From NCBI GenBank assembly GCA_025917655.1, contig CP084617.1, positions 1,612,001-1,676,000 of the forward strand: 64,000 nt of DNA, written 5' to 3'. Position 1 is the first letter of the stretch; each line of letters starts with the position of its first letter. Position numbers and translations under genes: made by a program. This stretch comes from Chlorella sorokiniana. Its lineage: Eukaryota; Chlorophyta; Trebouxiophyceae; Chlorellales; Chlorellaceae. This document shows positions 1 through 47,978 of this stretch, in pieces. Below the pieces are notes generated by a model that made no database searches, was not told the DNA's origin, and saw only the letters and a list, made by a program, of their open reading frames with translations.

Positions 1-1511
1 AGCAGATTGGCCTGGATGGAAAGGCGCAGCCAGTCTTGATTGAGATTATGTGCGTTACTGACAGCCACTGCCCGGGGTCTGCCACGCCGCACAGGCCCCA
101 CATCGCCAGAGCGCGCCGCCACACAGCCGTGTTGACGGTCAGCAGATTGGGTGCAGCGCTGACCATCCGCAGTAGTTCGTTCCTGCCAAACTCCTGCACC
201 AAACAGGCGGCAAGAATGAGCAGGCAACAGTGCTGTCGTTTCTCACTAAGAAGGGAACTCACCGCAACAAGCGCCAGCACGGCCTGCCGCAGGCGGTCCT
301 CGCTGAGTCTGCTGACCAACGGTGCACGCCGCAGCACCTTGCACCACATCTCGCGGTCAGCGCCCAGCTCCTGCTGCAGCACAGACTCTAGCGCAGCCAG
401 ATGCTCCGGGGGACTTTTCAGCAGCGGCCAATCCGACCGCACCGCTGCCACCAGTTGCTGCTGGCTGAGGCCCAGCTGCAGCAGGCTGTCAATGCGCTGC
501 TGTGAAAACTGTCCATTGAATTGCAGCAGATTTACAGCAGCTGGCTGCCCCACAAGCAGCTTTCCCAGCAGCTGTTCCCCTGTCTTGCCAACGTCGCTGG
601 CCCTGCAACCAGCAGCCAGCAGCAGCGCCAGCACCGCAATGGCTGGCTCGAAGCTGGCGCTGCCAGCTGCTGAAGGCTGCTGCTCAAAGCAGCGCGCTGC
701 CTGAGCTGCTGTTAGTCCCAGTGCCATCAGCTGCCCAAACAGCACGCCAGCACGCTGCTCCACCGGCCAGCTGAACAGCAGCGGACACCGCATAAGCAGC
801 CGCCACAGCTGCCCCTGCTCAATGCCCAGCCCGGCCAAGTAGGCGGCCACTGCTGCGCCATGGTCTTTGATGCTGTGCTGCCGCTTCCGATCAAGGGCAG
901 CCACTGCTCTCGCCAGCTCCGCCTCCCTGCCGCTCAATCCGCACTGCGCAGCAAGCGGGGCAAGCGTGGCTGCCAGATCAGGCGGTACATGCACCAGCTT
1001 GCCGCGCCCGTTCATCACTGTCTCAAACGTGTCGCTTCTATCAGCGTAGTCAGCTGAGTGCGTGCTGTAGCTGAGGCTAACGGCCTGCCACCAGCTGCTG
1101 GGCTGCTGCACAGCGCCGCCGGCCCGGCTGGTGGGCTGAGCATTCCTGGCAGGCTGTTGCAGCTGCCGCCAGCTGTTGTGTGGCAACAACCCGTATCGTC
1201 CACTGAGCTGCATAAATGTGTGGCCGGCACACACAACACAAAAATAACCTCAACAGCACCAAGCAAGGGCAGCACGCGTGCAGTCTGTGCAGCGGCTCAC
1301 TGGAGGGCTTGCTGCGGCAGGGGCGGCAAGCCCTCACCTCGCCTGCAGCAGACCAGGCCGGCTCCCAGGGCGGGACCGACACGGTGTGGATGTTAAGTTG
1401 AAAACAAGCGCTGCGCTCTATGCTGCCGCCGCCTTCTTTCGCCAGCTGTTCGCTGAAACTCGCGCAACAAAACCGCCGCAGCCTGCGGCTTGCTACACTG
1501 AGTACCCGCAT
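1..1511 (-). CDS. mTERF-like protein, array copy 0 (3' part outside window)
   Basis: This is the 5' two-thirds of an mTERF-family gene; such proteins bind organelle DNA or RNA through stacked helical mTERF repeats and act in transcription termination or RNA processing. Exon 1 is 1338-1511 (58 codons, starts MRVL, rich in Arg and Ser with few acidic residues, so probably a targeting peptide). Exon 2 is 263-1207 (315 codons, phase 0) and carries repeated L-x3-LGI...LL-x-RCPLLF motifs typical of mTERF repeats. Exon 3 starts at 193 after CAG and runs off the window. Intron 2 (194-262) is 69 nt, a multiple of three and free of stops, unlike the other copies. In exon 3 near position 75 the GC run is one base shorter than in copy 2, so the frame breaks. 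The family call is firm; function of this copy is not. Confidence 0.8.
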
Positions 1512-1760
1512 GATGAATCAAGCAGCGCCGGAGCACGACGCCCTCGAAGCCCAGCCATACGTGCAAACCAACCAGCCGCCAGCTCGCCGCTCCTAGCGTG
1601 CCGCGCTGGTGGCCACTCCTCTCTCAGCCCCAGGCCGGCATGCCCCACGCGCTTGATGCAAGTTTTGTGAATAATGGAATCTGAAACTGGTGATCTTTCA
1701 CAGCGCAAGGCCTGCAGCTAGCAACTGTGCTGCTTCAGTCACACCGGGCTGGCAAAGCAC
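1512..1760 (-). promoter_or_regulatory. Conserved upstream block, copy 0
   Basis: About 250 bp directly upstream of the mTERF start codon is closely matched at 4682-4935, 7232-7505 and 10324-10565. Landmarks shared by all four are a GTGCAAACCAA element followed by CAGCCGCC, and a farther GCGCAAGGCCTGCAGCTAG element. The position suggests promoter plus 5' UTR. No TATA box is obvious. Regulatory function is inferred from conservation and position only, and recent duplication alone could explain the similarity. Confidence 0.45.
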
Positions 1761-1799
1761 TCAAGGGATTGTTCCAGGGTGGGATGGACACGAGTCAAA

Positions 1800-2487
1800 T
1801 AAGTCCAGCACCCTCCTCATCAGCCATCAGGCTCGGTGCGGCGTGGCGGCCTGAACGCCGTGAACACTGGCCGCCTGCCGCCTCCGGCCGCACCTGCAGC
1901 TGCTGTGCGCTTCACCTGGGGCGCCTCCGTCGCCGCATCACTGTCTGGTACCGGCGGCGGGCGGATGCTGCTGCGGCTGGCACTCTGCAACATTCTGGGC
2001 TGCTGCACCTCTGGGCAGGGCGGGCAGCAGCAGGGGCCGCAGCAGCACGCGAGCCACTGCGGAGGTCACGGGCGCCAATGCAGCAGCTGCGCTGCCCCCA
2101 CACTGTCCTCGCACCCAGCTTCTGCCGCAAGCTCCGCTGCTGCTGCTGCTGCTTCCGCTGCTGCTGTGCGGAGCGGCCCCCTCGAGCGGGGGGGGGCGAC
2201 GCTTGTTGTGTGGCAGAGGGTGGGAGTGTGAGCTGTGCATGTGGATGTTGTCGGTGGCGGGCATAAGTGGGGGTGGGGGCGGTGAAGGGGTGGGGGCAAG
2301 GGCGCTGAAGGGGCATTGCTGCAGGTGTGTGGTGGTGCCTGGGAAAGATTGCATGTTTGCGTGTTTTGTGTGTAAGGGATGTCTTGAGGATGTCCCTGCG
2401 CCGCCGCCGCTGTTGGCACGCGGCACCAAGCGGCTGAGAGCCCTTGCAACCAGGGGCGATGCAGCACGTCCCCAACATGAGCTCAGG
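1800..2487 (-). pseudogene. RecQ helicase relic a
   Basis: This stretch is a mosaic of pieces of the intact RecQ gene. The C-terminal tail with the GGGRRPVF and PPRR motifs (about 1820-1880) matches the RecQ end at 10629-10690. The Q/S/A-rich part around 2050-2200 matches 10960-11100. A GT-rich piece at 2200-2270 matches the RecQ intron near 11980-12050. The DILK motif just before the helicase DE box (about 2395-2480) matches 13855-13950. The pieces keep gene order but large internal blocks are missing, including the whole helicase core. It is a decayed duplicate, not a gene. Confidence 0.75.
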
Positions 2488-2679
2488 CGGCTGCAGCCCG
2501 GCGTGTACCGCCTGCCAACCGCTTCGGGTGGGACAGACAGCGCTCAGACAGTTGTGTCTGGTCAGCCGTGTCTGATGATGGGTCTATGCTGCCATACAGT
2601 TCTGGCAATATTGCCAAACTTGGGAGTGGCAACTTGCAAAAGAAGCACAAGAGCAAAGCTAGCTTTCAATCAGTGCTGC

Positions 2680-4681
2680 CTAGCCTGGCCCGGGCCCTGG
2701 CAGCTCGTAGCTCCTCCTGGGCACCTGCTTCGATGCAACCTGCAGCGCAACAGGCAGCAGACGCTGCAGCCGCGTCGCCTCTGCCGCTGCCGCCGCCGCC
2801 AGCTGCTGCCAGGCAGGCAGCTGCTCCAAGCTGCCCCTGAACGCAGCCCAGCGGCCGCTGTCCACGCCCAGCTGCTCCAGCTGCTGCTCAAAGGCTGCGT
2901 CGCTCAGAGCAGCCACATCGCCGACACTGAGGAACAGTGGCTCGCCTGCTGCCTTCTTGTTGACAGGCAGCCCCCTGCTGCCGCCACTCGTGACGCGCGA
3001 CGCGTTTGTCTGCTACCAGCAGCGGCAACAGGCCGGCCTGCTCCAGGAACAGAAGGCGCCCTGCCAATTGCTCAGCCGTAGAGCGGCTGACATAGCTGGC
3101 AAACCGCTCGATGACCTCGGCTGCTGATGGCTGCCAGGGCAGGTAGTGCTGCAGTGCCAGCAGGTTGGCCTGGATGGACAAGCGCTGCCAGTCATGCTTG
3201 AGAACCTCTGCGCAATTGACGGCCACCGCCCGGGGTCTGCCACGCCGCACAGGCCCCACACCGCCAGAGCACGCTGCCATAAAGCCGTGCGGACGGTCAA
3301 GAGAAGAGGTGCAGCGCTGACCATCCGCAGCGCTTCTTCCCTGCCAAAGACCTGCGACAGAGAAACAGTTAGAGTGGGCAGGCAACAGTGCTGATCGTTG
3401 CTCATAAAAATGGGAACTCACCGCAACAAGCGCCAGCAAGCCCTGCCGCAGGCGGTCCTCGTTGGATCTGCTGACCAACGGTGCATGCCGCAGCACCTTG
3501 CACCATACCTCGCGGCCAGCGCCCAGCTCCTGCTGCAGCACAGCCTCTAGCCCAGCCAGGCGCTCTGAGGTACGATTAAGTAGCGACCACTCCGACCGCA
3601 CTGCTGCCACCAGCTGCTGCTGGCTGAGGCCCACCTGCAGCAGGCTGTCAATGCGCTGCTGCAGACACTGCCCGCCATACAACAACAGTTGGGATGCCGC
3701 TGGCTGCCTGACAAGCAGCTCTCCCAGCAGCTGCTCCCCTGTCTTGCCAACGTCACCGGCCCTGCACCCACCTGCGAGCAGCGGCGGCAGCACCGCAGTG
3801 GCTGGCTCGAAACTGGGTGTTGTAGCTGCAGAACGTTGCTGCTCAAAACAGCGCGCTGCCTGAGCCGCATTAAGCCCCAGCGCCATCAGCTGCCCAAACA
3901 GCACGCCAGCACGCTGCGCCGCCGGCCAGCTGAACAGGTAAGGGCAGCGCAGCAGCAGCCGCCCCAGCTGCCCCTGCTTGATGCCCTGCTCGATGCCCAG
4001 GCCGGCCAAGTAGGCTGCCACTGCTGCGCCATGGTCTTTAATGCCCTGCTGCCGCTTCCGGTCAAGGGCAGCCACTGCTCTCGCCAGCTTTGCCTCCCTG
4101 CCGCTCAATCCGCACTGCGCAGCCAGCGGGGCAAGCGTGCCCGCCATGTCAGGCGGTACGGGCACCAGCTTGCCGCGCCCGTTCATCACTGTCTCAAACG
4201 TGTTGCTGCTATCAGCGCTTTCAGCTGACTGCGTGCTGTGGCTGAGGCTGGCGGCCTGCCAACAGCTGCTGGGCTGCCGCACAGCGCTGCCTGCTTGGCT
4301 GGTGGGCTGGGCAAGTGAAACAGGCTGGCGCAGCTGCCGCCAGCTGTTGGTTGGCGACAACCCATTTCGTCCATTGAGCTGCGTGCATGTGCGGACGGCA
4401 CACACAGCACAGCACTAACCTCAACAGCACCAAGCAAGGGCAGCATGCGTGCAACCTGTGCAGTGGCTCACTGGAGGGCTTGCGACGGCGGCAGCGGCAC
4501 CCCTCACCTCGCCTGCCGTATAAAAAGACGGCTCCCAGGGCGGGCCCGACACGGTGTGGACACACTGGTTAGAAGCAGCGCTGCACTGTATGCTGCTGCC
4601 GCCTTCCTTCGCCAGCTGATCGCTGAAACTCGCGAAACAAAACCGCCGCAGCCTGCGGCTTGCTACAATGAGTACACGCAT
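2680..4681 (-). CDS. mTERF-like protein, array copy 1 (frame broken twice in exon 3)
   Basis: This copy has three exons: 4508-4681 (58 codons, Arg/Ser-rich N-terminus), 3422-4378 (319 codons, mTERF repeats) and 2680-3351. Introns have GTGAGG/GTGAGT donors and CAG acceptors with phase 0 joins. Exon 3 begins VFGREEALRMVS and should run to a stop at 2680. Two frame changes relative to copy 2 are visible: one base is missing in the C run near 3235 (after VADP), and two bases are missing near 2975 (after EWRQQ). Together they restore the original frame, but the stretch between is read out of frame and gives a stop near 3013. Either the gene is decaying or the G/C runs are under-called in the assembly. 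A 505-codon open frame at 2888-4405 reads through intron 2 and is not the true product. Confidence 0.75.
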
Positions 4682-4935
4682 GACCAACGAAGGAGCGCCG
4701 GATCACGGCGCCCTTAAAGCCCAGCCATCCGTGCAAACCAACCAGCCGCCAGCTCGCCGCTCCGAGCGTGCCGCGCTGGTGGCCACTCCTCTCTCGGCCT
4801 CAGGCTGGCATGACCGCGCCCTTGATGCAAGTCATGCGAATGAGGAAGGCCTGTCCTGGTGATCAATCCTTTACAGCGCAAGGCCTGCAGCTAGCTCTTG
4901 TGCTGCTCCAGTCACACGGCATTGGCAAGCGAGCG
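4682..4935 (-). promoter_or_regulatory. Conserved upstream block, copy 1
   Basis: This is the second copy of the block upstream of the array mTERF genes. It is followed within about 100 bp by the downstream block of the next unit at 5047, with no RecQ relic between, so here the ancestral RecQ part is deleted entirely. Confidence 0.45.
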
Positions 4936-5220
4936 AGGGGTGGGGCTGCCTCAGGGTGGAATGATGCGAGTCAGTGATTCACCCCAGCATCCTGGCCACC
5001 GGGCGCTGACAGGCAGGCAAAGAAGACTGCGCACATGCCCTCCCTTGCAGCGCAGGCGGCTGTAGCCTGGCGTGTACCGCCTGCCGACCGCTTTAGGCAC
5101 AGCGCTCAGACAGCTGCGTGTTGGCAGCTGTGTCTGGTGATGGGTCTGTGTTGCCGTAAGGCTCTGGTAATGTTGCCAAACTTGGGTGTGACAACGTGCA
5201 TGTGGGGCACAGGAGCAACG

Positions 5221-7231
5221 CTAGCTTTCACTCAGTGCTGCCAAGCCTGGCCCGGCCCCCGGCAGCTCGTAGCTCCGCCTGGGCACCTGCTTCGCTGCAA
5301 CCTGCGGCTCCAAAGGCAGCAATTCCTGCAGCCGTGCTGCCTCCGACACTGCGGCCGCTGTCAGCTGCTGCCAGGCAGGCAGCTGCTCCAGGCTCACCCT
5401 GAACGCCATCCAGCTGCTGCTGTGCATGCCCAGCTGCTCCAGCTGCTGCTCAAAAGCTGCATCGCTCAGAATAGCCACATCGCTGACACTGATGAACAGC
5501 GGCTTGCCTGCTGCCTTCTTGTTGACAGGCAGACCCCTCTGCAGCCGCTCCTCCTGCCGCGCAACGCGTTTGTCTGCCACCAGCAGCGGCAGCAGGCCGG
5601 CCTGCTCCAGCAACAGCAGGCGCCCTGCCAGTCGCTCGGTAGAACACTTGCCGACATAGCTGGCAAACTGCTCAATCACCTCGGCTGCTGATGGCTGCCA
5701 GGGCAGGTAGCGCTGCAGTGCCAACAGGTTGGCCTGGATGGACAGGCGCAGCCAGTCTTGGTGGAGAGTTTGAGCGCGTTTGACGGCCACCGCCCGGGGG
5801 TCTGCCACGCCGCACAGGCCCCACACCGCCAAAGCGCGCCGCAACACAGCAGTGTGGACGGTCAGCAAATGGGGTGCAGCGCTGACCATCCGAAGAACTT
5901 CTTCCCTGCCAAACTCCTGCGTCAACATGCAGTGAGTGGGCAGGCAAAAGAGTGCTGATCATTGCTCTTTGAGATGGGCACTCACCGCAACAAACGCCAG
6001 CACGCGCTGCCGCAGGCGGTCCTCGCTAAGTCTGTTGACCAATGGTGCATGCCGCAGCACTTTGCACCATACCTCGCGGTCAGCACCAAGCTCCTGCTGC
6101 AGCACAGCCTCAAGCGCAGCCAGGTGCTCCGGAGAACTTTTCAGCAGCGACAAATCCGACCGCAGAGCTGCCACCAGCTGCCGCTGGCTGAGGCCCAGTT
6201 GCAGCAGGCTGTCAATGCGCTGCTGCAAACACTGCCCATTGAACTGCAGCAGGACGGATGCCGCTGGCTGCCTGACAAGCAGCTCTCCCAGCAGCTGCTC
6301 GTCCGTCTTGCCGACGTCAATGGCCCTGCACCCAGATGCCAGCAGCGGCGCCAGGACTGGAATGGCTTGCGCGAAGCTGGGACTGGAAGCTGCGAGAGGC
6401 TGCTGCTCAAAGCAGCGCGCTGCCTGTACTGCGTTCAATACCAGCGCCATCAGCTGCTCAAACAGCACGCCAGCACGCTGCTCCTCTGGCCAGCTGAACA
6501 ACAGCGGACACCGCATCAGCAGCCGCCCCAACTGGCCCTGCTCAATGCCCAGGCCGGCCAAGTAGGCTGCCACTGCTGTGCCATGGTATTTGAAGGCCTG
6601 CTGCCGCTTCTGGTCAAGGGCAGCCACTGCTCTCGCCAGCTCCGCCTCCCTGCCGCTCAAGCCGCACTGCGCAGACAGCGGGGCAAGCGTGCCCGCCAGG
6701 TCAGGCGGTACGGGCACCAGCTTGCCACGCCGGGTCACCACCGTCTCTAATGTGATCATGCTGTCGGCATCATCAGTAGACTGCTTGCTGTGGCTGAGGC
6801 TGGCAGCCTGCCAATAGCTGCTGGGCTGCCGCACAGCGCTGCCGGATCGGCCGGTGGGCTGAGCAAGCGCAGCAGGCTGGTGCAACTGCCGCCAGCTGGT
6901 TGGCAACAATCCATGTCGTCCATTAAGCTGCGTGCATGTGTGGCCGGCATGCAGATCTTTGCAGTCACCTCGACAGCACCGAGCAAGGCCAGCATGCGTG
7001 CAGTCTGTGCAGAGGCTCCCTGGAGGGCTTGCGGCGGTAGGAGCGGCAAGCCCTCACCTCGCCTGCCGCAATACCGGACGGCTCCCAGAGCGGGCCCAAC
7101 ACGGCGTGGGTACACTGGTCAGAAGCAGCGCTGCACTGTACGTTGCCGCCGCCTTCCTTCGCCAGCTGATCGCTGAAACTCGCGGAACACAACCGCCGCA
7201 GCCTACGGCTCGCAGCATTCAATGTGCGCAT
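5221..7231 (-). CDS. mTERF-like protein, array copy 2 (intact)
   Basis: This is the only array copy that reads cleanly from start to stop. Exons are 7058-7231, 5986-6927 and 5221-5916, giving 58+314+231 = 603 residues. All joins are phase 0 with GTGAG donors and CAG acceptors. The first about 35 residues are Arg/Ser/Leu-rich without Asp or Glu, as expected for a mitochondrial or plastid transit peptide. Residues about 150-370 hold mTERF repeats (for example AAYLAGLGIEQGQLGRLL and CPLLFSW). Residues about 373-600 form a Leu/Ala/Gln-rich helical region starting EFGREEVLRMVS, with AVWGLCGVADPRAVAV kept in frame. mTERF proteins act on organelle nucleic acids; the specific target is unknown. A GCGTGTACCGCC element and the 3' flank at 5047-5220 are shared with the other units. 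Confidence 0.85.
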
Positions 7232-7505
7232 GATGAATCAAGCAGCGCCGGAGCACGACGCCCTTCAAGCCCAGCCATCCGTGCAAACCAATCAGCCGCC
7301 CGCTCGCCGCTCCTAGCGTGCCGCGCTGGTGGCCACTCCTCTCTCAGCCTCAGACTGGCATGACCGCGCCTTTGATGATAGTTTGCGGTTTGATGATGAT
7401 TCGCGGTCCAAATAACCCTTTCCTGGTAATCTCTCATAGCGCAAGGCCTGCAGCTAGCTCTTGTGCTGCCCCAGTCACACGGGGGCTGGCAAGCGGTAAA
7501 GGTGT
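7232..7505 (-). promoter_or_regulatory. Conserved upstream block, copy 2
   Basis: This is the third copy of the shared upstream block. It differs from the others by about 40 extra bases around 7375-7425, a TGATGAT-rich insertion. This is the block in front of the only intact array gene. Confidence 0.45.
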
Positions 7506-7507
7506 GG

Positions 7508-8130
7508 GGCGGTTCCCTGGTGTGCGCCGATGCAGCAGCTGCATCGCCCCCGCACTGTCCTTGCACCCAGCTGCCGCTGCCACCTCCGCTGCTGCTGCTG
7601 CCGCTGCTGCCGCTGTGCGCGCGGCCCCCTCGAGCGTTTGGGGCCAACTGCACCCGCGGCAGCCTGCCCTGCTGCGGCCTGCGCTGCTGCATCAGGGCGC
7701 GGGCTGTGGCAAAAGGATCAGCCCCTTCCCGCTCCGCGCTCCCCGCCTCGCTGCTGCCTCCCGGCAAACCCGCTGCGCTGCTGCTCTCGGCGTGCAAACG
7801 CTTGCCCCTCTGGCGTGCCAGCTCCTCACCCCTGAATCCGTGTCGCAGCGATCAAAGGGGTCTGCCGCTGCCTCCCCTCCCTTGCTCGCCGCCGCCGCCG
7901 CCCCCTGGCGCCGCTCCGCGCAGCTGAACGCCCGCCCCCGCAAGTTGCCGTTGCTGCTTGGAGGCCAGCACCCAACTCATCAATCGCAAAGGAGCACAGC
8001 CGGCCGGCGGCATGCACCTCCTTCAGGATGTCCCTGCGCAGCCGCCGCCGTTGGCACACGGCACCAAGCGGCTGAGAGCGTTTGCAGCCAGGCGGCCACG
8101 CAGCACGTCCGCAAGGCGCAGCGCAGGCGG
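7508..8130 (-). pseudogene. RecQ helicase relic b, internally deleted
   Basis: The low-coordinate part (about 7510-7925) matches the RecQ C-terminal coding region at 11000-11400, including the AAADPFDRC and [13 protein letters not shown] type segments. The high-coordinate part (about 7930-8125) matches 13765-13951, which holds the [19 protein letters not shown] segment and the start of the intron behind it. The two are fused near 7928 at a short shared CGCCCG sequence, removing about 2.4 kb that encode helicase motifs III-VI and the zinc-binding module. The former splice donor after AIDE is TTGGGT here instead of GTGGGT. It is a deletion relic and cannot encode a helicase. Confidence 0.75.
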
Positions 8131-8297
8131 CTGCAGCCTGGCGTGTACCGCCTGCCGAACGCTTCAAGAGGAATGGACAGCGCTCAGACAGCTGCGTCTG
8201 GTAAGCTGTGTCTGGTGATGGGTCGTGCTGCCATACGGCTCTGACAATGTTGCCAATCTTGGGAGTGGCAACTTGCAAGCGGAGCACAGGAGCAAAG

Positions 8298-10323
8298 CTA
8301 GCTTTCACTCAGTGCTGCCAAGCCTGGCCTGGCCCCCGGCAGCTCGTAGCTCCGCCTGGGCACCTGCTTGGCTGCAATCTGCAGATCCAGAGGCAGCAGA
8401 CGCTGCAGCCGCGCCGTTTCCGCCGCCGCGGCCGCCGTCAGCTGCTGCCAGGCAGGCAGACGCTCCAAGCTGCCCCTGAAGGCAGCCCAGCGGCCGCTGT
8501 CCACGCCCAGCTGCTCCAGCTGCTGCTCAAAAGCTGCGTCGCTCAGAGCAGCCACATCACGAACACTGATGAACAGTGGCTCGCCGGCTGCCTTCTTGTT
8601 GACAGGCAGCCCCCACTGCTGCCGCCACTCCCGAAGCGCGATGCGTTTGTCTGCCACCAGCAGCGGTAGCAGGCCGGCCTGCTCCAGCAACAGCAGCCGT
8701 CCGGCCAGTCGCTCAGCTGCATAGCAGCCGACATAGCTGGCAAACCGCTCAATCACCTCGGCTGCTGATGGCTGCCAGGGCAGGTAGCGCTGCAGTGCCA
8801 GCAGGTTGGCCTGGACAGACAGGCGCAGCCAGTCATAGTGGAGATTACTTGCGTCATTGATGGCAACAGCCGGGGGTCTGCCACGTCGGACAGGCCCCAC
8901 ACCGCCAGAGCGCGCCGCCACACAGCCGTGCGGACGGTCAACAAAAGAGGTGCAGCGCTGACCATCCGAAGAACTTCTTCCCCGCCAAACTCCTGCACCA
9001 AACAGGCAGCCAGAATGAGCAAGCAACAGTAATGACTAATGCTACTATAGATGGGAACTCACCGCAACAAGCGCCAGCACGCCCTGCCGCAGGCGGTCCT
9101 CGCTGGTTCTGACGACCAACGTTGCGCGCCGCAGCACCTTGCACCACACCTTGCGGTCAGCGCCCAGCTCCTGCTGCAGCACAGTCTCAAGCGCAGCCAG
9201 GCGCTCTGAGGTACGATTAAGTAGCGACCATTCCTGCCGCACTGCTGCCACCAGCTGTTGCTGGCTGAGGCCCAGCTGCAGCAGGCTGTCAATGCGCTGC
9301 TGCAGACACTGCCCGTCATACGTCAACAGTTGGGATGCCGCTGGCTGCCTGACAAGCAGCTCTCCCAGCAGCTGCTCGCCCGTCTTGCCAACATCGCTGG
9401 TCCTGCACCCAGCAGCCAGCAGCGGCGCCAGCACCGCAATAGCAGACGCGAAGGCGGGGCTTAGAGCTGCAGAAGGCTGTTGATCGAAGCAGCGCGCTGC
9501 CTGAGCTGCTGTCAGTCCCAGCGCCACTAGCTGCCCAAACAGCACACCAGCACGCTGCTCCACCGGCCAGCTGAACAGGTATGGGCAGCGCACTAGCAGC
9601 CGCCCCAGCTGCCCCTGTCCACTGCCCTGCTCAATGCCCAGGCCGGCCAAGTAGGCTGCCACTGCTTCGACATGGTATTTGGTGCCCTGCTGCCGCTTCC
9701 GATCAAGGGCAGCCACTGCTCTCGCCAGCTCCGCCTCCCTGCCGCTCAAGCCGCACTGCGCAGCCAGCGGGGCAAGCGCGCCTGCCAGGTCAGGCGGTAC
9801 AGGCACCAGCTTGCCGCGATTTTTCGTCATTGTCTCAAAAGTGTTGCTGCTATCAGCGCTTTCAGCTGACGGCGTGCTGCAATTGAGGCTGGCGGCCTGC
9901 CAACAGCTGCTGGGCTGCCTCCAAGCGCTGCGGGCCCGGCATGTGGGCTGAACAAGTGTAGCAGGCTGGTACGGCTGCTGCCAGCTGTTGGTTGGCAACA
10001 ACCCAAGTCGTCCATTGAGCTGCGTGCATGTGTAACCGGCGCACACAACACATCAATCACCTCGACAGCACCAAGCAAGGCCAGCATATGCGTATTCTGC
10101 GCAGTGGCTCACTGGAGGGCTTGCTGCGGCAGGGGCGGCAAGCCCTCACCTCGCCTGCCGCAGAAAAGGACGGCTCCCAGGGCGGTACTGACGCTTTGTG
10201 GATGCACTGGTCGAAAGGAGCGCTGCACTGTATGCTGCCGCTGCCTTCCTTCGCCAGCTGATCGCTGAAACTCGCGAAACAAAACCGCCGCAGCCTGCGG
10301 CATGCTGCAGTCAGCACCCGCAT
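8298..10323 (-). CDS. mTERF-like protein, array copy 3 (one frame break)
   Basis: Exons are 10150-10323 (58 codons), 9063-10019 (319 codons) and 8298-8992. The N-terminus MRVLTAACRRLRRFCFASFS looks like an organelle-targeting peptide. Exon 2 carries the mTERF repeats, with RCPYLFSWPVEQRAGV as one repeat core. Exon 3 starts EFGGEEVLRMVS and ends GLAALSES, the same tail as copy 2. Near 8872, after VADPR, one base is missing compared with copy 2, so the frame changes. This is close to the site where copies 0 and 1 are also one base short, although the missing base differs. The rest of exon 3 is well conserved, which argues that either the break is very recent or it is a sequencing deletion. Confidence 0.75.
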
Positions 10324-10565
10324 GATTGATCAAGCAACGCCGGAGACGGCGCCTCGAAGCCCAGGCATCCGTGCAAACCAACCAGCCGCCAGCTCGCCGC
10401 TCCAAGCGTGGCCGCGCTGATGGCCACTCCTCTCTCAGCCTCAGACTGGCATGACCGCGCGCTTGATGCAGTCTGCAAATGTTGAAGGCCTTAACTTTCA
10501 CAGCGCAAGGCCTGCAGCTAGTTCTTGTGCTGTTTCAGTCACACGACGCGGGCAAGCGCTTGAGG
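10324..10565 (-). promoter_or_regulatory. Conserved upstream block, copy 3
   Basis: This is the fourth copy of the shared upstream block. It lies only about 60-300 bp downstream of the RecQ stop codon, so RecQ and this mTERF copy are closely spaced neighbours on the same strand. Confidence 0.45.
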
Positions 10566-10628
10566 AATGGGGGCTGTTTTTCTGGGTGGAGTGACGCGAG
10601 TCAGTGAATCAGCCCTGCACCCTCATCA

Positions 10629-13600
10629 TCAGCCATAAAGCTCGGCGCGGCGTGGCGGCTTGAACGCCCTGAACACTGGGCGCCTGCCGCCGCCGGACGC
10701 TCCTGAAGCTGCTGTGAGTTTGGCTGGCAGCGCCTCCGTCGCCGCATCACTGCCTGCCAGCGGCGGCGGGGCGGCCCGACAGCTGTGAGGGTCTGGAGAC
10801 CGTGCAGCGATGCAAAGCACAGCAGCCGGGGCTTCTTGAGGTGCAGGAAGTGATGTGGTGCCATTGGCGGGCGAGTTCGCACCACTCTGCTGCTGCTGGC
10901 ACTCTGCAACATTCCGGGCTGCTGCACGTCTGGGCAGGGCGGGCAGCAGCAAGGGCCGCAGCGTCACGCGAGCCACTGCGGAGGTGACGGGTGCCGATGC
11001 AGCAGCTGCGCTGCCTGCCGCACTGTCCTTGCACCCTGCTTCTGCCGCAAGCTCCGCTGCTGCCGCCGCTGCTGCCGCTGCTGTGCGCGCGGCGCCCCTC
11101 GAGCATTCGGGGCCGATTGCAGCCGCGGCAGCCTGCCCTGCTGCGGCCTGCGCTGCTGCGTCAGGGCGCGGGCTGTGGCAAAGGGATCAGCCCCCGCCGC
11201 TCCGCGCTCCCCGCCTCGCTGCTGCCACCCGGCGAGCCCGCTGCGCTGCTGCTCTCAGCGTGCAGACGCTTGCCCCTCTGGCGCGCCAGCTCCTCGCCCC
11301 CTGAACCCGGGTCGCAGCGATCAAAGGGGTCTGCCGCCGCCTCCCCCCTCCCTTGCTCGCCGCCGCCGCCGCCTCCTGGCGCCGCTCCGCGCAGCTGACC
11401 GCCCGGCGCACGGCGGCTGGGTCGACGCAAAAAGTCGCAGGGCGCCTCCCGAGATCCGCCGCGCAGCCCCCTGCCGCCGCTCGCCAAAGTAGGAGAGCAG
11501 GGCACGGCGGCGGCAGCGCGGCTCCTGCATGGGGGCAGAGGGAACGCATTGCTGCGGGCGGCCTGGGCAGTATGCGACTAGCCCAACTTGGTGCAGCCGC
11601 GGGCGCTTGCTGCTCGCTGACAGCGGAGGTGCGGCCAGAGGCGGCAGTGCGGCCTGCGCTGCGATGCCCTTGCAGCGTGCCGCCTTTCAATCCGCGGCGC
11701 AGCAGCAGCGGCAGCGGCAGCGGTGCGGCGCCCGCATCGGCGGCCCCTCGCGCCTGGATGTAGGCGGCAACGGCGGCGGCCGCTCCGCGCCGCGCCCCCG
11801 CTCCAAGCGCGCCGCCTGGCTCAGCTCCTGGCCGGCTGCGTAGAGCAGGCTGAGGGCTGGGTGGCCGTCTCTGCCGCCGCGGCCGCTCTCCTGGTAGAAG
11901 CCCTCCAGGGAGGCGGGGGGTCCCAGTGCACCACCCAGCGCACGTCGGCCTTGTCGATGCCCATGCCTGGTGTGTTGGGGGGGGGTCGGTTGTTGTGTGG
12001 GAGTGGGTGGGAGCGAGAGGTGTGCATGTGTGTTGTCGGTGGCAGGCTCAAGTGGGGCGGGCGGGTGGGAGGTGATCATTTGCGGCCTGTCAGGAGGCAA
12101 GGCTTGAGAGGGGCCGCTTTGGAGCGAGAATAAAGCTGCTGCATGGGCAGCGGGATGCTCGCTGGTGCGCAGAGGGAAGGCCCGCTCCCCCCTCCTGTGC
12201 AGAAGACCCCCAGGCCCCTCCTCCCCCCCAGCCTGCCCACCAAAGGCCACGGTGGCGACCACAGCCTGATAGCTGCCGTCTGACCAGCCCGCCTGGATCT
12301 GCAGCGGGGCAGGGGGAGGGGGCAACATGAGTCAACGGAGGGAGGATGAGAGGATCCGGGAGAAACAGGGGGTGGGGGGGGCGGCGGGGGAGGGGAAGAC
12401 AGACAGGCAGGGCCGGGGTGGGGGGAGGTACTTTGAAGCAGGGGTTAGGAGGCAAGCTTGTGAAGGCAGGCAAACATCCCCATCTATTACTGCGATAAGT
12501 AAAGGATGGGTGGGCAGTCTCAGCGAGGGGGCAGCGCTACCCCTTGCCAGCTACCCTTGCCCGCTACGGCGCGGCGTCCCCCCCCAGCCGCCGCGGCGCA
12601 CCCTGGAGCGCTGCTGGCTGTCCTTGCCGGCGTGGTAGGCGGCGACGTCCAGCCCCGCATCCTCCAGCCGCCCCGCCAGCCAGTCGCAGGTGGCCCGCAG
12701 GCGCGCGTACACGATGCCGCACTGCCCGCGCCGCTCCGCCAGCACCGCCAGCAGGTCCTGAGGGGGCGTGTATGTAAGTGGGGTTTTATACTGGTGTGTA
12801 TGGGGCGGGGGGCTGAGTTTAGCGGTGCATTGCGGGTCAGGAAGAAAGCGCAGCCAGCGCCGCCAAACTCCCCACCTGCAGCGCGGCGTCGCGCCCGCCG
12901 TCTCCCAGCAGCTCCTTGTACCGCACCTCGTACCGGATGTTGGGCCTGCCGGCGGGAGGAAAGCACGCTGGAATGGACAGGCAGGCAAAGAGATGCCAAC
13001 CAGGAGGAGGCGGATGCAAGCGAGTTGGCTGCCGTCCAAGGCTGAGCGCTAAGCTGCGCAGGTTCAGGGGCGGGGGCGGAAGGCGGCGGACGCATCCGCA
13101 GGCATGGGTCGTGTGCGGTTTTGGCGGTACGGAGGCGCCACCCTGGCGTACTGCCAACCTGTTGAAGGAGCCGTGGAGGAGCAGCGGCTCCCGCAGCTGC
13201 AGCGTGCCTGCAATGCACCCGGGGGAAGGGGGCGGCGGGCACAGGAAGCAGGCATGACGTCAGCGCACGCACCCGACACGGCTGACTGCCCACCATGGAT
13301 GAGTCAGTGACAAGCAGCGCAGCACAGCGTAGCCACAAACGCTTTCGCTGCCCAGATGGCCCCCAGGCAGCGCCGCAGCCGCGCACTTGCGATGGAGGCG
13401 CGCACGTCGGCGGTGGCGGTGGCGGTGGCGGCGATCAGCGGTACGCCCGGGAAGTCAGCGCGTACCGCCTCCAGGCCCAGGTAGGCGGGGCGGAAGTCGT
13501 GGCCCCACTCGCTCACACAGTGCGCCTGGGAGGGGGGGGCAAGGGCAGTTGTGTGTGTGTGGGGGGGGGGGGGCATAAAGGGGGGCCGAGGGGGAGGGCA

Positions 13601-15162
13601 CAGTGTGTGTGTGTGGGGGGAGGGTGCAGTATGTGTGGGGGAGGGGGTAGGGTCCATGCGGTCGGCCGAATGGCGAGCCGGCCCAGCGCAGGCTGCGCGG
13701 CACAATACAGCTCGGCACACTCTTGCAACGCTGCCAGCAGTTCTCTGGGGGCAAGGCGCCCTCCCGCCCCCGCAAGCTGCCGTTGCCGCTGGGAAGCCAG
13801 CACCCACCTCGTCAATTGCAAAGGAGCAGAGCCTGCCGGCAGCATGCACCTCCTTCAGGATGTCCCTGCGCCGCCGCCATTTGGCAGACGGAAGCAAGCG
13901 GCTGAGAGCGCTTGAAGCCAGGCGGCAACGCAGCACGTCCGCAAGGCGCAGCGTATGGCGAGCGAGGCAGGGCGCAATCCACAGGCTGGGCAGCGCCCGG
14001 CATGCGGCGGCGGCTGCCCAGCGGCGGCACCCACCTGAGCCGCTCCATTTGCAGGGACTCCGGGGTGGTGTAGCTGCGGTGGCAGGTTGCAGGTGTGTGT
14101 GTGTGAGTGTGTGTGTGTGTGTGAGTGAGGGGGCCAGGCACAGCAAACAAGGGGGAGAGGGAGGGCGGCAGCACAAAGGGGCAGGGTAGGAACACAGGAC
14201 AGCATCCGCGCCAGCAGAATGCTTGCGCACTGAGCCGAGGGGCTAGCCAAGCGGGCCCAGCAGCTGCTGCTGTTACACCCGTGTACATCACAATAACAGC
14301 AGCGCTGTGCCGGGCAGCCTCCCAGCGGCGCGTCGGCTTTGCCACAGCCTGCCGCGTCTGCGCCCCGCCCTGCCCCCCCCAGACCCTCACAGCAGGCGCA
14401 GCGTGCCATCCTCAAGATCCGCCGCCAGCTCGCGCGCCAGCGCCGCCTTGATGTTTTCCGGGGTTTCGCTGCTCCACGCCGCCGCCTCGATTCCGCGCTC
14501 CAGGCAGCCCTCCACCTGAGCAGCGCCGGGGATGTGAGCCGAAGCGGCTGCCGCACAGCAGCCGCTGGCTGTCAGCCATCCTGTCAACAGGCGATGGCGG
14601 GCCAAAGGGCGCAGCCGCTGGCACTGGTGCGAGGCAGCTGCCGGGCAAGCGCCCGCGCAGCACCCACCTGGTCTTTGGCCAGCGCCAGCAGCGGCGTCAC
14701 CACCACCGTCAGCTGGTTGCGGTAGAGCGGCGGCAGCTGGTAGGTCAGAGACTTGCCGCCGCCTGCGGGGGGGCCAGAGCGCGGGCAGAGTGGGTGGAGG
14801 GGGTTGATGGGTGCTGCACCGCGGCTTGCGCTCACGCAGCAAGGCACCCACAAGGCAGGGGTGTCTGTGGACAAGCGAGCGCTGTGCTGTAAAGAAGGGG
14901 GATGGTGGGTGCTGCCGTGCTGCTCGCTGGGCAGCGGCCAGCTAGGCAGGAGAGGGCGCGCAGCCTGTCAAGCGGGGCCGCAGGGCGGTTGAAGACTCGC
15001 CCCCGTTGAGCGTGCAGGCAGCCCACCTGTGGGCAGTATGACCAGCACGTCCCCGCCTGCCAGCGTGGCTGCCACTGCTTCCGCCTGCAGCGGTCTGAAG
15101 GCGTCGTGGCCCCAGTGCTGGCGCATCACATGTGCCAGCCCCTCCAGCAGGGTGGCGTCCAC
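10629..15162 (-). CDS. RecQ-family DNA helicase
   Basis: This is an ATP-dependent 3'-5' DNA helicase of the RecQ family, used in recombination and fork repair. Exons seen on the minus strand: up to 15027 (FRPLQAEAV, motif 0, ending PTG), 14668-14762 ([12 protein letters not shown], Walker A, then [10 protein letters not shown]), 14391-14515, 14035-14073 (YTTPESL), about 13808-14000 (AIDE), 13525 down ([13 protein letters not shown], completing the DEAH box and RecQ loop), 13159-13207, 12876-12945 ([12 protein letters not shown]), 12602-12757 ([18 protein letters not shown]), 12241-12298 (AVVATVAFG) and 11966 down ([15 protein letters not shown], then [11 protein letters not shown], motif VI). 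The zinc module [12 protein letters not shown] and a CDFC-like motif follow near 11400-11510. The protein ends in a low-complexity tail with [16 protein letters not shown]. The G run at 11915-11920 is one base short for the frame. No ATG was found in frame at the 5' end, so the true start is uncertain. Confidence 0.85.
14092..14126. repeat. GT microsatellite in RecQ intron
   Basis: This is a run of about 17 GT units with two GA interruptions, inside the intron in front of the YTTPESL exon of RecQ. Similar GT- or CA-rich tracts occur in many introns in this window. Confidence 0.9.
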
Positions 15163-16122
15163 AGGTTGCGAAGGCGGCGGCGCTGCGGCCCCGGCTGCGG
15201 CGGCCGCTGGGCGCGCACTGTGCGCTTCATGGAGCCTACCGAGGCTGTGCCGTATGTGTAGAAAGCCAGAACGCAGCGTTCTGGCACGGACTGGAAATGC
15301 TGAAAGCGATCAAGCGAGAATTTGCACCGTGCAGGCAAGCAGCACCGCGCAAATGACCTTCGCCGTAGTATGCACGACTGTGAGCGGCCCATTGCAACAA
15401 TAGCGGGCATGGAGCGCTGCCAAGTCGGCATGCTGTCCACGCTGGCCAAAGCTGCCGCCGCCGTGGGTGTGGGTGTTCACCTCCCGTGGCTGTTACGATT
15501 AAGTACCAGCATTCAGCACTACACTTTGCTATCGAAGCACCGACTGCAGGGAAATAAGGAAGCCAAAGCCATTGAAATGCGGTGAGCGTGTGCTGTGGCG
15601 CCCTTGCTGCATTGACGCACCAAGTCGCGTTGTTTCACGAGGCATTGAGCTGCTCCGGTGCAGAAAACATTTATTCGGCAAGATCATGCCTCACAGTGAC
15701 GTTTGCACATCCTTCCCTGCAGAGAATGTCTTGCTATTAACCTGGCGCAGCCCTGATTCTGTCAAATGCTGGCGCCGGCGTCACAGCTGTCCCGCCTGCC
15801 TAAAGCTGCCCCACCGATGCACGGGCACCGACCAGAGGAGCAGAAATTCCGATTCCACATTGTCTACATCTTGTAGATGTCCTACAACCTGAAATACGGG
15901 CCCTCCATGTCTGCCTCCATGTACAGCCGGAAGAAGGCGTTGATGCGCCCCTCATGAGCCCAGAAGCCCCAGCATTGCGAGGCTTCCTCCTTTTCCTTTT
16001 GTTTTGCGGTAAAGCTGGGAGCCGCCCCTTGCGCTGGCCCGGCGACTCGCTCAATCCTTTTCTGGCACCGGCATCGGGCCTGTCCGGCTCCCGCCCCGCT
16101 TGTCTTGACTTACAGCCTCTCG
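15163..16122. other. Intergenic region, RecQ 5' end to gene A
   Basis: No exon was recognised. It should hold the 5' UTR and promoter of RecQ (minus) and of gene A (plus), and possibly an unseen first RecQ exon. Parts around 15300-15900 are less GC-rich than the neighbours and have no frame with recognisable domains. Confidence 0.4.
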
Positions 16123-43431: not shown

Positions 43432-45268
43432 TCACTCAGGAGACACCTCTGGAGGCAGCAGCCCCTGCAGCCGCGCCGCCTCCGCCTCCGCAGCCGCCAT
43501 CAGCTGCTGCCAGGCGGGCAGATGTTCCAAGCTGCCCGGGAACGCCACCCAGCTGCCGCTGTCCACGCCCAGCTGCTGCAGCTGCTGCTCAAAAACTGCA
43601 TCGCTCAAAACAGCCACATTGCGAACACTGATGTATGCTGGTATGCCAGCAGCCTTCTTGGTAGCTGGCAGCCCTCCCTGCTGTTGCCACTCTTGAAGTG
43701 CGACGCGTTCGTTTGCCACCAGCAGCGGCAGCAGGCCGGCTTGCTCCAGGAACAGCAACCGCCCTGCCAGCCGCTCTGCCGAACAACTGACATAGCTGGC
43801 AAACCGCTCAATTACCTCGGCTGCTGACGGCTGCCAGGAAAGGTAGCACCGCAGCGCCAGCAGGTTGGCCTGGACGGACGGGCGCAGCCAGTCCATGTAG
43901 AGATTCTGAGCATTATTGACGGCCACCGCCCTGGGGTCTGCCACGCCGCACAGGCCCCACACCGCCAGAGCGCGTCGCCAAACAGCCGTGCGGACGGTCA
44001 ACAAAGCAGCTGCAGCGCTGACCATCCGCAGCGCTTCTTCCTTGCCAAACTCCTGCACCAAACAGGCAGTGAGAGAGGGCAGGCAGCAGTGCTGGTCGTT
44101 GCTCATTAAGATGGGCACTCACCGCAACAAGCGCCAGCACGACCTGCCGCAAGCGGTCCTCGCTGAGTCTGTTGACCAACGGTGCACATCGCAGCACCTT
44201 GCCCCACAGCTCGCGGTCAGCGCCCAGCTCCTGCTGCAGCACATCCTCTAACGCTCCCAGGTGCTCCCGGGCACAACTGAGCAGCGAACAATCCCTGCGC
44301 AGAGCTGCCACCATCTGCTGCTCAGTGAGGCCCAGCTGCAGCAGGCTGTCAATGCGCTGCTGTAAAAACTGTCCATTATATTGCAGCAGAATCACTGCAG
44401 CTGGCTGCCCCACAAGCAGCTCTCCCAGCAGCTGCTCCCCGTCTTGCTGACGTCGCTGGTCCTGCACCCACCAGCCAGCAGCGGCGCCAGCACCGCAACA
44501 GCTGGCTCGAAGGACGGGCTGAAAGCTGCAGAAGGTTGCTGCTCAAAGCAGCGCGCTGCCTGCGCTGCATTGAGGCCCAGCGCCATCAGCTGCCCAAACA
44601 GCACACCAGCACGCTGCTCCGCCGGCCGGCTGAACAGCACCGGACACCGTATCAGCAGACGCCCCAGCTGCCCCTGCTCAATGCCCAGGCCAGTCAAGTA
44701 CGCTGCCACTGATGCGCCATGCTGCACCACACCCTGCTGACGGATTCTATTCAGCTTGGCCACAGCCCGCGCCAGATCGGCCTCCTTGCCGCTCACGCCG
44801 CATTGCTCTGCCAGCGACGCCAGCCTGTCCGCAAGGTCTGGCGGCAAAGCCACCAGCTTGCTGCCTCACTGACTGACAACCATCTCTGTCCCGCACTCTT
44901 CGCTGTCAGCTGCTGCATGGCCTGCTGAGCAGGGCGCCCACACAGGCCGCCGCTGGCGCCGCCGCCCGGGCGCTGCTCGGCGGGGCCACAGTGCTGCCTG
45001 CAGCAAGCACAGCATAGGCATTGTATTCAGTAGAAATCTCAGGCTATTACATGCCGTGCATCACCGCTTGTTCGGCGACCAAGGCAAGATGGGCAGAGCA
45101 GGACAGAGCAGCACGAGCTGGAGGCGGGCGGCAACGCCGGGCGACCCTCACCCTGCCACTGGACGCGCTGCGAGGGTGGTGGGGATCGCTAGCAGCCGCG
45201 AAGATGCGTGATTGAAGCGGCATAAGAGCGGCTAAGCTCGCTCCCACCCCAGCCGCGAGCACTGCCAT
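43432..45268 (-). pseudogene. mTERF-like gene, dispersed copy D1 (probably broken)
   Basis: Three exons: 45152-45268 (39 codons, MAVLAAGVGASLAALMPLQS), 44123-44997 and 43432-44052. Exons 2 and 3 are homologous to the array mTERF genes (AYLTGLGIEQGQLGRLLIRC; EFGKEEALRMVS), but exon 1 is different, an Ala/Leu-rich possible targeting peptide. Near 44865 an in-frame TGA replaces the Arg codon found in copy D2 (VVSQR), with three extra bases next to it. Near 44440, after SKTG, one base is missing in a C run. Exon 3 reads cleanly to a stop at 43432 and keeps VADPRAVAV in frame, giving a shorter C-terminus than the array copies. The substitution stop cannot be blamed on a homopolymer, so a real pseudogene is likely. 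Confidence 0.7.
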
Positions 45269-46047: not shown

Positions 46048-47978
46048 CTAAAGACAAGAGCATCGGCTGGGGAACTGAGCAGGTTCCAGCATCAGCAACC
46101 CCATGAACAACTTAGGTGAGGAGCTCATAACCTTCATGGTCTGGCTGAGCCAGCGCCGGCGGCAGCAGCCCCGCAGCCGCGCCGCCTCCGCCTCCGCAGC
46201 CGCCATCAGCTGCTGCCAGGCAGGCAGCTGCTCCAAGCTGCCCCTGAACGCCACCCAGCTGCCGCTGTGCACGCCCAGCTGCTCCAGCTGCTGCTCAATG
46301 ACTGCATCGCTCAGAACAGAAACATCGCGGACACTGATGAACAGTGGCTCGTCTGCTGTCTTCTGGTTGACAGGCAACCCCTGCTGCTGCCGCCACTCTT
46401 GAAGCGCAGAGCGTTTGTCTGCCACCAGCAGCGGCAGCAGGCCGGCCTGCTCCAGGAACAGTAGCCGTCCCGCCAGCCGCTCTGCTGCAGACTTGCACAC
46501 ATAGCTGGCAAACCGCTCACCCACCTCGGCTGCTGATGGCTGCCACGGCAGGTAGCGCCGCAAGACCAGCAGGTTGGCCTGGACAGACGGGCGCAGCCAG
46601 TCCTGGTAGAGAATATTTGCGCAATTGATGGCAACTGCCTGAGGGTCTGCCACGCCGCACAGGCCCCACACAGCCAGAGCGCACCGCCACACAGCCGTGC
46701 GGACGGTCAGCAACCCAGGTGCAGCGCTGACCATCCGCAGCGCTTCCTCCCTGCCAAACTCCTGCAACAGATGGTCAGAGGAAATGTGAGCAGGAAGAGC
46801 AAGGAGCCAAGGCACTCATTGCAGGCACGCACCGCAACTAGCGCCTGCGCCCGCTGCCGCAGCGTGTCTTCTGCCGTGGTGGCCCCCTGCGTGCCTGTGT
46901 GCAGCAGCTTGAGCCACAGCTGGCGGTCGGCACCCAGCTCCTGCTGCAGCACCGCTTCCTGAGCTGTCAGGCGCTCGGGCGGGAACGTCAGCAGGGAAAT
47001 TGTTTGCTGCAGGCCTGTCACCAGCTGGCGCTCTGTCAGGCCCAGCTGCAGCAGGCTGTCAATGCGCTGCTGCAGCGTCTCGGTGCGAAATTTCAACAGT
47101 AAAACTGCTGCTGGCTGCCTAACAAGCAGCTCTCCCAGCAGCTGCTCCCCCCGTCTTGCCGACGTCGCTGGCCCTGCACCCAGCAGCCAGCAGCAACGCC
47201 AGCACTGCAATGGCTGGCTCAAAGCTGGGGTTTCCAGCTGCAAGAGGCTGCCGTTCAAAGCAGCGCGCTGCCTGAGACGCTGTCAGCCCCAGCGCCTTCA
47301 GCTGCCCAAACAGCACACCAGCACGCTGCTCCACCGGCCAGCTGAACAGCAGCGGACACCGCATTAGCAGCCGCCCCAGCTGCCCCTGCTCAATGCCCAG
47401 GCCAGACAAGTACGCTGCCACCGATGTGCCATGCTGCAGCATACCCTGCTGCCGGCTTCCATAAAGCTTGGCCACAGCCCGCGCCAGATCGGCCTCCTTG
47501 CTGCTCACGCCGCACTGCTCTGCCAGCGGCGCCAGGCATTTCGCAAGGTCTACAGACAAAGCCACCAGCTTGCCGCGCTGGCTGACAACCATCTCTGTAC
47601 CGCACTCTTCGCTGTCAGCTGCTGCATGGCCTGCTGAGCAGGGCGCCCAGACAGGCCGCCGTTGGAGCCGCCGCTTCTGCGCTGCTCGATGCGGCCACAG
47701 CGCCGCCTGCCACAAGCGCAGCATGGGCATTGCATTCGATAGAAAGTCAGGCCAGTTCTTGTCGCGCGTTGCTGCTGGCTGGGCGGCTGCAGCGAGATGG
47801 GCAGAACAGGAGCAGCGAGCGCACAAGCCGGTGGCAGGCGGCAACACCGGGCGACCCTCACGTTGCCGCTGGACGCGCTGCACGGCGGCTGGCAATCCCT
47901 AGCAGCCATGGAGGTTCGTGCCTGAAGCGGTGTAATAGCGGCGAAGCTGGCTGCCACCCCAGCCGCGAGCGGTGGCAT
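46048..47978 (-). CDS. mTERF-like protein, dispersed copy D2 (frame broken)
   Basis: Exons are 47862-47978 (39 codons, MPPLAAGVAASFAAITPLQA, possible targeting peptide), 46833-47706 (begins AALWPHRAAQKRRLQR, then VVSQRGKLVAL and mTERF repeats such as GIEQGQLGRLLMRCPLLFSW) and 46048-46761 (EFGREEALRMVSAAPGLLTV). The GCAG acceptor at 47707 keeps phase 0 with exon 1. In exon 2 near 47150, after GKTG, there is one extra base in a C run compared with the array copies. At the homologous site D1 has one base too few. Near 46165 the frame again departs from the D1 C-terminus. Intron 2 has a GTGCGT donor. The homopolymer location leaves open whether these are real mutations. Confidence 0.7.

Follow-up and report, generated by a model that had tools for sequence, protein, structure and literature searches.

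In the cereals wheat, rye and barley, RFL-mTERF genes are clustered and expanded, and one clade is described as RFL-PPR-like and as overlapping Rf loci (PMC7759465, PMC8035072, PMC10226603). In Chlamydomonas reinhardtii, at least 32 NCL (NCC-like) genes form a cluster on chromosome 15 (PMC8226300), and two NCC mutants with single changes are reported to have gained new chloroplast transcript targets (PMC8635915). The cereal RFL-mTERF and the Chlamydomonas NCL clusters are the nearest known kinds to the locus considered here, an array of mTERF genes, coding for putative regulators of chloroplast or mitochondrial genes, next to a RecQ-type helicase gene in Chlorella sorokiniana. The stretch analysed (the window, 64,000 nucleotides) is C12:1612001-1676000, where C12 denotes contig CP084617.1 of a genome of 38.8 Mb in 15 contigs. 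A first, sequence-only reading of this DNA had described four mTERF genes in repeatedly duplicated RecQ-mTERF cassettes with biased loss of the helicase. The mTERF array is real and larger than first described: the four tandem copies stand, and the count was too low, with two more copies elsewhere in the window and 23 places on C12.

On the minus strand, from high to low coordinates, the array is made up of the RecQ gene (11320..15228, ends approximate), mTERF copy 4 (8298..10323), RecQ relic b (7526..8123), mTERF copy 3 (5221..7231), a RecQ-free spacer (4682..5220), mTERF copy 2 (2662..4681), RecQ relic a (1777..2475) and mTERF copy 1 (1..1511, continuing to about C12:1611509). The four units share 82-86% identity across about 1.8-2.6 kb (self-BLAST, E = 0) and are marked by the repeat families D1-D7, each present in four copies. 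Copy 3 is open throughout, with exons of 174, 942 and 696 nucleotides, two GT-AG introns and 603 residues up to the stop. The start codons of copies 1, 2 and 4 lie at 1511, 4681 and 10323, and their second exons at 1207-263, 4378-3422 and 10019-9063, respectively, with exon 3 of copy 1 crossing the window edge. The two further copies of the same family, outside the array and likewise on the minus strand (43447..44940 and 46171..47649), contain frame breaks, and an exon 1 resembling that of the array units was not found in them.

Exon 2 of copy 4 and exon 3 of copy 3, when searched against the alga's own whole genome, gave 32 and 42 matches at E <= 0.001, every one of them on C12; all of C12 was covered, the counts are lower bounds, and no family match appeared outside C12 at this threshold. 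The matches span C12 1486.6-1761.2 kb, or ~275 kb, and resolve into at least 23 places (20 close copies and three that have diverged), with an additional fragment at 1690.6 kb. These places form about eight groups on both strands, all lying no more than ~307 kb from the telomeric end of C12, where TTTAGGG repeats are present. With 23 places over ~275 kb, clustering and expansion are found as in RFL-mTERF, and the likeness to the cereal system is that mTERF genes are expanded and clustered in particular chromosome regions. The two cases differ in that the alga has no pollen and that the genes here adjoin RecQ; they are likened by clustering, not by clade. The Chlamydomonas NCL genes resemble the locus in forming a lineage-specific green-algal cluster; they code for helical-repeat RNA-binding proteins, as the genes here may do too. 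The NCL products are OPR-RAP proteins, not mTERF, and helicase relics are not mentioned in the text consulted on them. No such mTERF cluster was seen among the papers listed for mTERF together with Chlorella or in the text consulted from one of them (PMC13126933), and one may still be in print. As side observations, the fragment (C12:1690611-1690799) is a short exon-3-like piece between two ordinary copies, and four copies at C12:1560-1570 kb lack an exon 1 like that of the others and are possibly a subfamily with a different N-terminus; of the three spacers in this group, one matches the RecQ-free spacer partially and the other two have no match to it.

Membership in the mTERF family is supported by the Pfam profile (PF02536), which was matched at E <= 0.01 by all 14 open exon-2 proteins scanned, those of the four array units among them; the scan covered 14 of the 20 main copies, the other six being excluded for stops in translation, and the score given for one exon-2 protein is 33.0 bits against a cut-off of 23.1. 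When four long open frames were scored, three were above the cut-off and copy 2 reached 15.9. A whole-genome Pfam search returned mTERF matches on C2 only and missed the diverged C12 family, and five mTERF exon proteins had no match in NCBIfam. After the ATG, exon 1 encodes an arginine-rich N-terminus in 13 of the 23 family places, and a start of this sort is seen in organelle presequences. From family and N-terminus, we infer that the proteins are most likely imported into the chloroplast or mitochondrion, where their mTERF repeats would bind organelle nucleic acid. Against this stand structural comparisons of low confidence: the predicted structures, although mostly helical, have a mean predicted local distance difference test score (pLDDT) of 44 and 40 (exon 2 from four alignment rows, exon 3 from one), and a profile search of the PDB listed MTERF4 at E 0.45-1, under an unrelated protein at 0.35. 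An exon-2 profile built from four rows found no mTERF in the PDB. For the family at large, direct binding of an mTERF protein to its target mRNA is reported to have had no conclusive demonstration yet (PMC13126933).

The frames are under purifying selection. Among the four array units, the ratio of nonsynonymous to synonymous substitution rates (dN/dS) is 0.46-0.57 at a dS of 0.20-0.30, and over all pairs of copies the median is 0.78 in exon 1, 0.56 at the start of exon 2 and 0.44-0.50 elsewhere. Against our overall reading of the locus stands a single-nucleotide deletion in a CCCCCGGG run near codon 411, which breaks eight of the 20 main copies and is spread over the family. In the window, the site is broken at ~77, ~3235 and ~8876 and whole at ~5800; copies 1 and 2 have frame breaks near codons 411 and 499, copy 4 has one near codon 411, and other copies contain further small indels. 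These lesions invite the view that the broken copies have become pseudogenes in a decaying array where few genes still work, which we judge unlikely: translated in copy 3's frame, none of the 13 copies that possess exon 1 meets a stop before codon 578 of 604, and past the codon-411 site the median dN/dS is alike in broken and unbroken copies (0.46 vs 0.42). Besides, the lengths of C/G runs argue against decay. In 213,675 bases of C12 including the window, runs of five are in excess over an order-4 model of the same sequence (804 observed, 594 expected), runs of six and seven are in deficit (105 vs 221 and 26 vs 82), and runs of eight stand at 37 vs 31. Homopolymer miscalls would give such a pattern, and the frame breaks may thus be assembly errors.

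The same codon-411 context is whole in some copies and broken in others, and the breaks may be miscalls, a slippage hot spot, real indels or have another cause. A programmed ribosomal frameshift in part of the family would account for an identical site in eight copies with a conserved frame downstream; unbroken copies with identical context, one broken copy with a run of five C plus two G in place of four C plus three G, and the simpler account offered by run-length errors make it very improbable. An intron at this position was considered and rejected by eye, as the copies have no GT-AG pair in common and the unbroken ones are open across the site. The signs of homopolymer error in the assembly might also raise the suspicion that the array itself is an artefact of duplicated haplotigs or misjoins. 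This we hold to be scarcely credible, since artefactual duplicates would be near identical, whereas the copies differ by 14-18% at the dS given above and the two relics have unlike deletions.

That RecQ is whole only at the right end of the array was confirmed. In this gene, about 12 exons were read by hand and the core helicase motifs 0 to VI were seen by eye, exon by exon, in a reading that leaves out ~12980-12900. The profile TIGR00614 (NCBIfam) was matched at 15129-15022, 14769-14659, 13528-13385 and 12763-12593. From an ordinary member of the RecQ family, which it resembles exon by exon, the gene differs in being a mere neighbour of the array, in one frame break (in the exon holding motif VI, before the motif) and in a poorly defined zinc region after the core, where RecQ_Zn_bind was matched at E 0.00093 with 20.3 bits, under the cut-off of 25. 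Other RecQ-profile matches lie on C1, C2, C3, C5, C7 and C9 and at C12:809 kb, among the 49 of 63 candidates that were scored.

Downstream of the helicase core lies a stretch, 10600..11320 on the minus strand, which is partly common to both relics. When the whole RecQ stretch was compared with the examined parts of C12, 612 bases matched C12:1582197-1582777 at 73%; this piece corresponds to RecQ 11191-10600 and sits directly upstream of the first gene of the plus-strand group at 1583 kb. No RecQ core exons were found upstream of it or of six other group-head stretches. The tail ends similarly in RecQ, in relic a and in the copy at 1582 kb (VF-AF with a stop nearby), which is why we read 10600-11320 as probably the RecQ C-terminus; the shared tail could instead be ordinary mTERF upstream DNA. 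Whichever identity the tail has, its adjacency to mTERF would be older than this array, because a copy of it heads another mTERF group, and the neighbourhood of RecQ and mTERF would accordingly predate the array.

The presence of two RecQ relics between mTERF genes was also borne out, as both match pieces of RecQ at 82-90%. Relic b retains two pieces (13953-13763 and 11405-10993 of the RecQ region), and relic a, with internal deletions, retains four (13944-13853, 12057-11977, 11104-10887 and 10770-10584). In relic b, the 3' flank of mTERF copy 4 is joined at 8118..8123 to RecQ at ~13953, with a six-base microhomology, CGCTGC, present in both; the match of relic a begins at 13944, nine bases from the start of relic b. 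No RecQ sequence 5' of 13944-13953 was found in either relic. The exon in relic b has a two-nucleotide insertion, and the GT of the donor that follows is lost. Since the two relics share a near-identical internal start, the copied helicase would have been incomplete from the beginning, and the piece probably had no RecQ 5' end or ATP-binding motif from the outset. The claim that the relics were shredded from whole RecQ copies is therefore not upheld. As a query, the DNA of relic b matched only this array, besides eight short matches in a CAG-rich stretch; that RecQ-derived DNA is confined to the array, as this query taken by itself would have it, was rejected, for the whole-RecQ query also matches the tail-like stretch at 1582 kb.

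Between copies 3 and 2 lies the spacer that had been taken as a unit from which the helicase was completely lost. It matches four spacers of other groups (1488.6, 1585.1, 1587.6 and 1698.4 kb) over almost its full length at 77-79%, and the stretch that separates the 3' flank of one gene from the 5' flank of its neighbour is similar across the five full spacers. This spacer type, joint included, is thus common to four RecQ-free spacers elsewhere on the contig, and the spacer does not represent a separate local loss. Half of the within-group spacers (7/14) measure 513-554 bases. In the relic spacers, the common sequence stops at spacer position 187 or 189 and restarts at 308 in relic a and 290 in relic b, and beside the whole RecQ it starts at position 243. 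Two observations weigh against this account of the spacer. When the 11 other relic-free spacers within groups were compared with it, four matched completely, three partially, and the remaining four had no match; and it shares a 16-base exact match with a RecQ intron, not seen in the other four full spacers, which may have arisen by chance or be a remnant of RecQ.

We therefore regard as the probable history of the locus a tandem and segmental growth of the mTERF family in which pieces of RecQ were passengers of duplication; that process most likely left the RecQ fragments behind as by-products. Shared spacers show that the family expanded through tandem and segmental duplication, often in units of one gene plus spacer (about 2.55 kb). 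RecQ adjoins the array at its head, and the 73% copy suggests that its C-terminal tail lay beside mTERF before at least two groups separated. One duplication would then have fused an mTERF 3' flank to the middle of RecQ at the six-base microhomology, as the near-identical relic starts suggest, and so placed the 3' part of RecQ between mTERF copies. The passenger, lacking the start and the ATP-binding motif, has undergone different deletions in its two copies, and a block duplication may have turned one relic into two. Tandem duplication at microhomology is known to create a new junction in a neighbouring gene at a few shared bases and to leave a 5'-truncated copy; the joint of relic b resembles such passenger fragments, and the only oddity is that nearly the same junction survives in two units.

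Phylogenetic trees give this sequence of events partial backing. In the exon 2 tree, copies 2 and 4 were grouped (98/95), which is what a block duplication would give. Exon 3 gave a tree in which copies 2 and 4 are not grouped, and copies 1 and 3 are not grouped either, so that the trees agree on no single order of duplications. In neither the exon 2 nor the exon 3 tree do the four units form one clade, yet they may have a single origin.

The competing account has a RecQ-mTERF cassette repeatedly duplicated, with RecQ lost from three of four units or, in a wider form, lost once early with the RecQ-free unit spreading afterwards. RecQ pieces with different deletions in two of the three inner spacers, the copy of the RecQ tail heading a different mTERF group and the 16-base match speak in its favour, and the 1582 kb copy in particular lowered our confidence in a single passenger event and raised it for the cassette. 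The common internal start of both relics, with nothing found 5' of it, and the RecQ-free joint that recurs in other groups, which removes the need for a separate loss here, make this account rather unlikely all the same. Its core nevertheless holds in a limited form: the RecQ 3' part travelled more than once, RecQ pieces moved with mTERF, and the adjacency is old; biased loss of the helicase, by contrast, agrees neither with the shared internal start nor with the RecQ-free spacer.

Within the growing family, variation is uneven, with 11 different residues at codon 421 among 20 copies and 10 at codon 283 among 18. Amino-acid diversity along the protein has its top period at 37.2 residues (p = 0.0035, block shuffle). 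The same period was obtained for nonsynonymous diversity (pN), where none of 2000 block shuffles was as strong, and synonymous diversity (pS) gave p = 0.12. Within a set of 13 copies, the periodicity of diversity had p = 0.12, and within a set of 6 copies p = 0.02, one of the 20 copies being in neither set; the autocorrelation over lags 10-79 gave p = 0.067. In a forward simulation of neutral change at three rates, the codons above the neutral 99.9% level numbered 6 of 454 at the lowest rate (0.5 expected), then 3, then 1 at the highest. Across 14 held-out tests, the codons selected had a pN of 1.4-2.6 times the gene-wide pS, with local pS also raised.

One diversifying spot per ~37-residue mTERF repeat is, on these numbers, suggestive only, and several of them tell against it. 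The neutral exceedance shrinks from 6 to 1 of 454 codons as the assumed rate rises, only 3 of the 14 held-out tests had a bootstrap P(<=1) < 0.05, all four tests going from 13 copies to 6 had ratios of 0.70-0.75, and structural constraint in a repeat protein would alone be expected to produce such a period. The proposal of a fast-evolving locus of organelle-nucleus interaction can be kept in part: the expansion on one chromosome arm, the purifying selection on the frames, the arginine-rich exon in 13 of 23 places and the ~37-residue period fit it.

In rice, RFL-PPR proteins show high diversity at their base-recognising residues (PMC5075784). By analogy with what has been proposed for RFL and NCL, the Chlorella family might supply a stock of factors that diversify in specificity, each repeat varying at about one spot, a comparison that is suggestive only. 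More speculatively, the telomere-near array could be an algal arsenal of restorer type, with one hypervariable specificity spot per ~37-residue repeat and its diversity kept by conflict over organelle transcripts; we rate this as a possibility with the odds well against it. If true, it would make the family a naturally occurring resource for deciphering how mTERF repeats recognise their targets by a code.

In summary, the RecQ relics illustrate that a fragment carried by duplication can mimic biased gene loss. Beside the fast-evolving clusters of organelle factors described in cereals (PPR and mTERF) and in Chlamydomonas (OPR), a green-algal mTERF cluster would add a further, probably independent case in an organism without pollen or male sterility, which would bear on what drives such clusters. 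If the pattern of one variable spot per repeat holds, the paralogues would offer material for the question of a nucleic-acid code in mTERF repeats.

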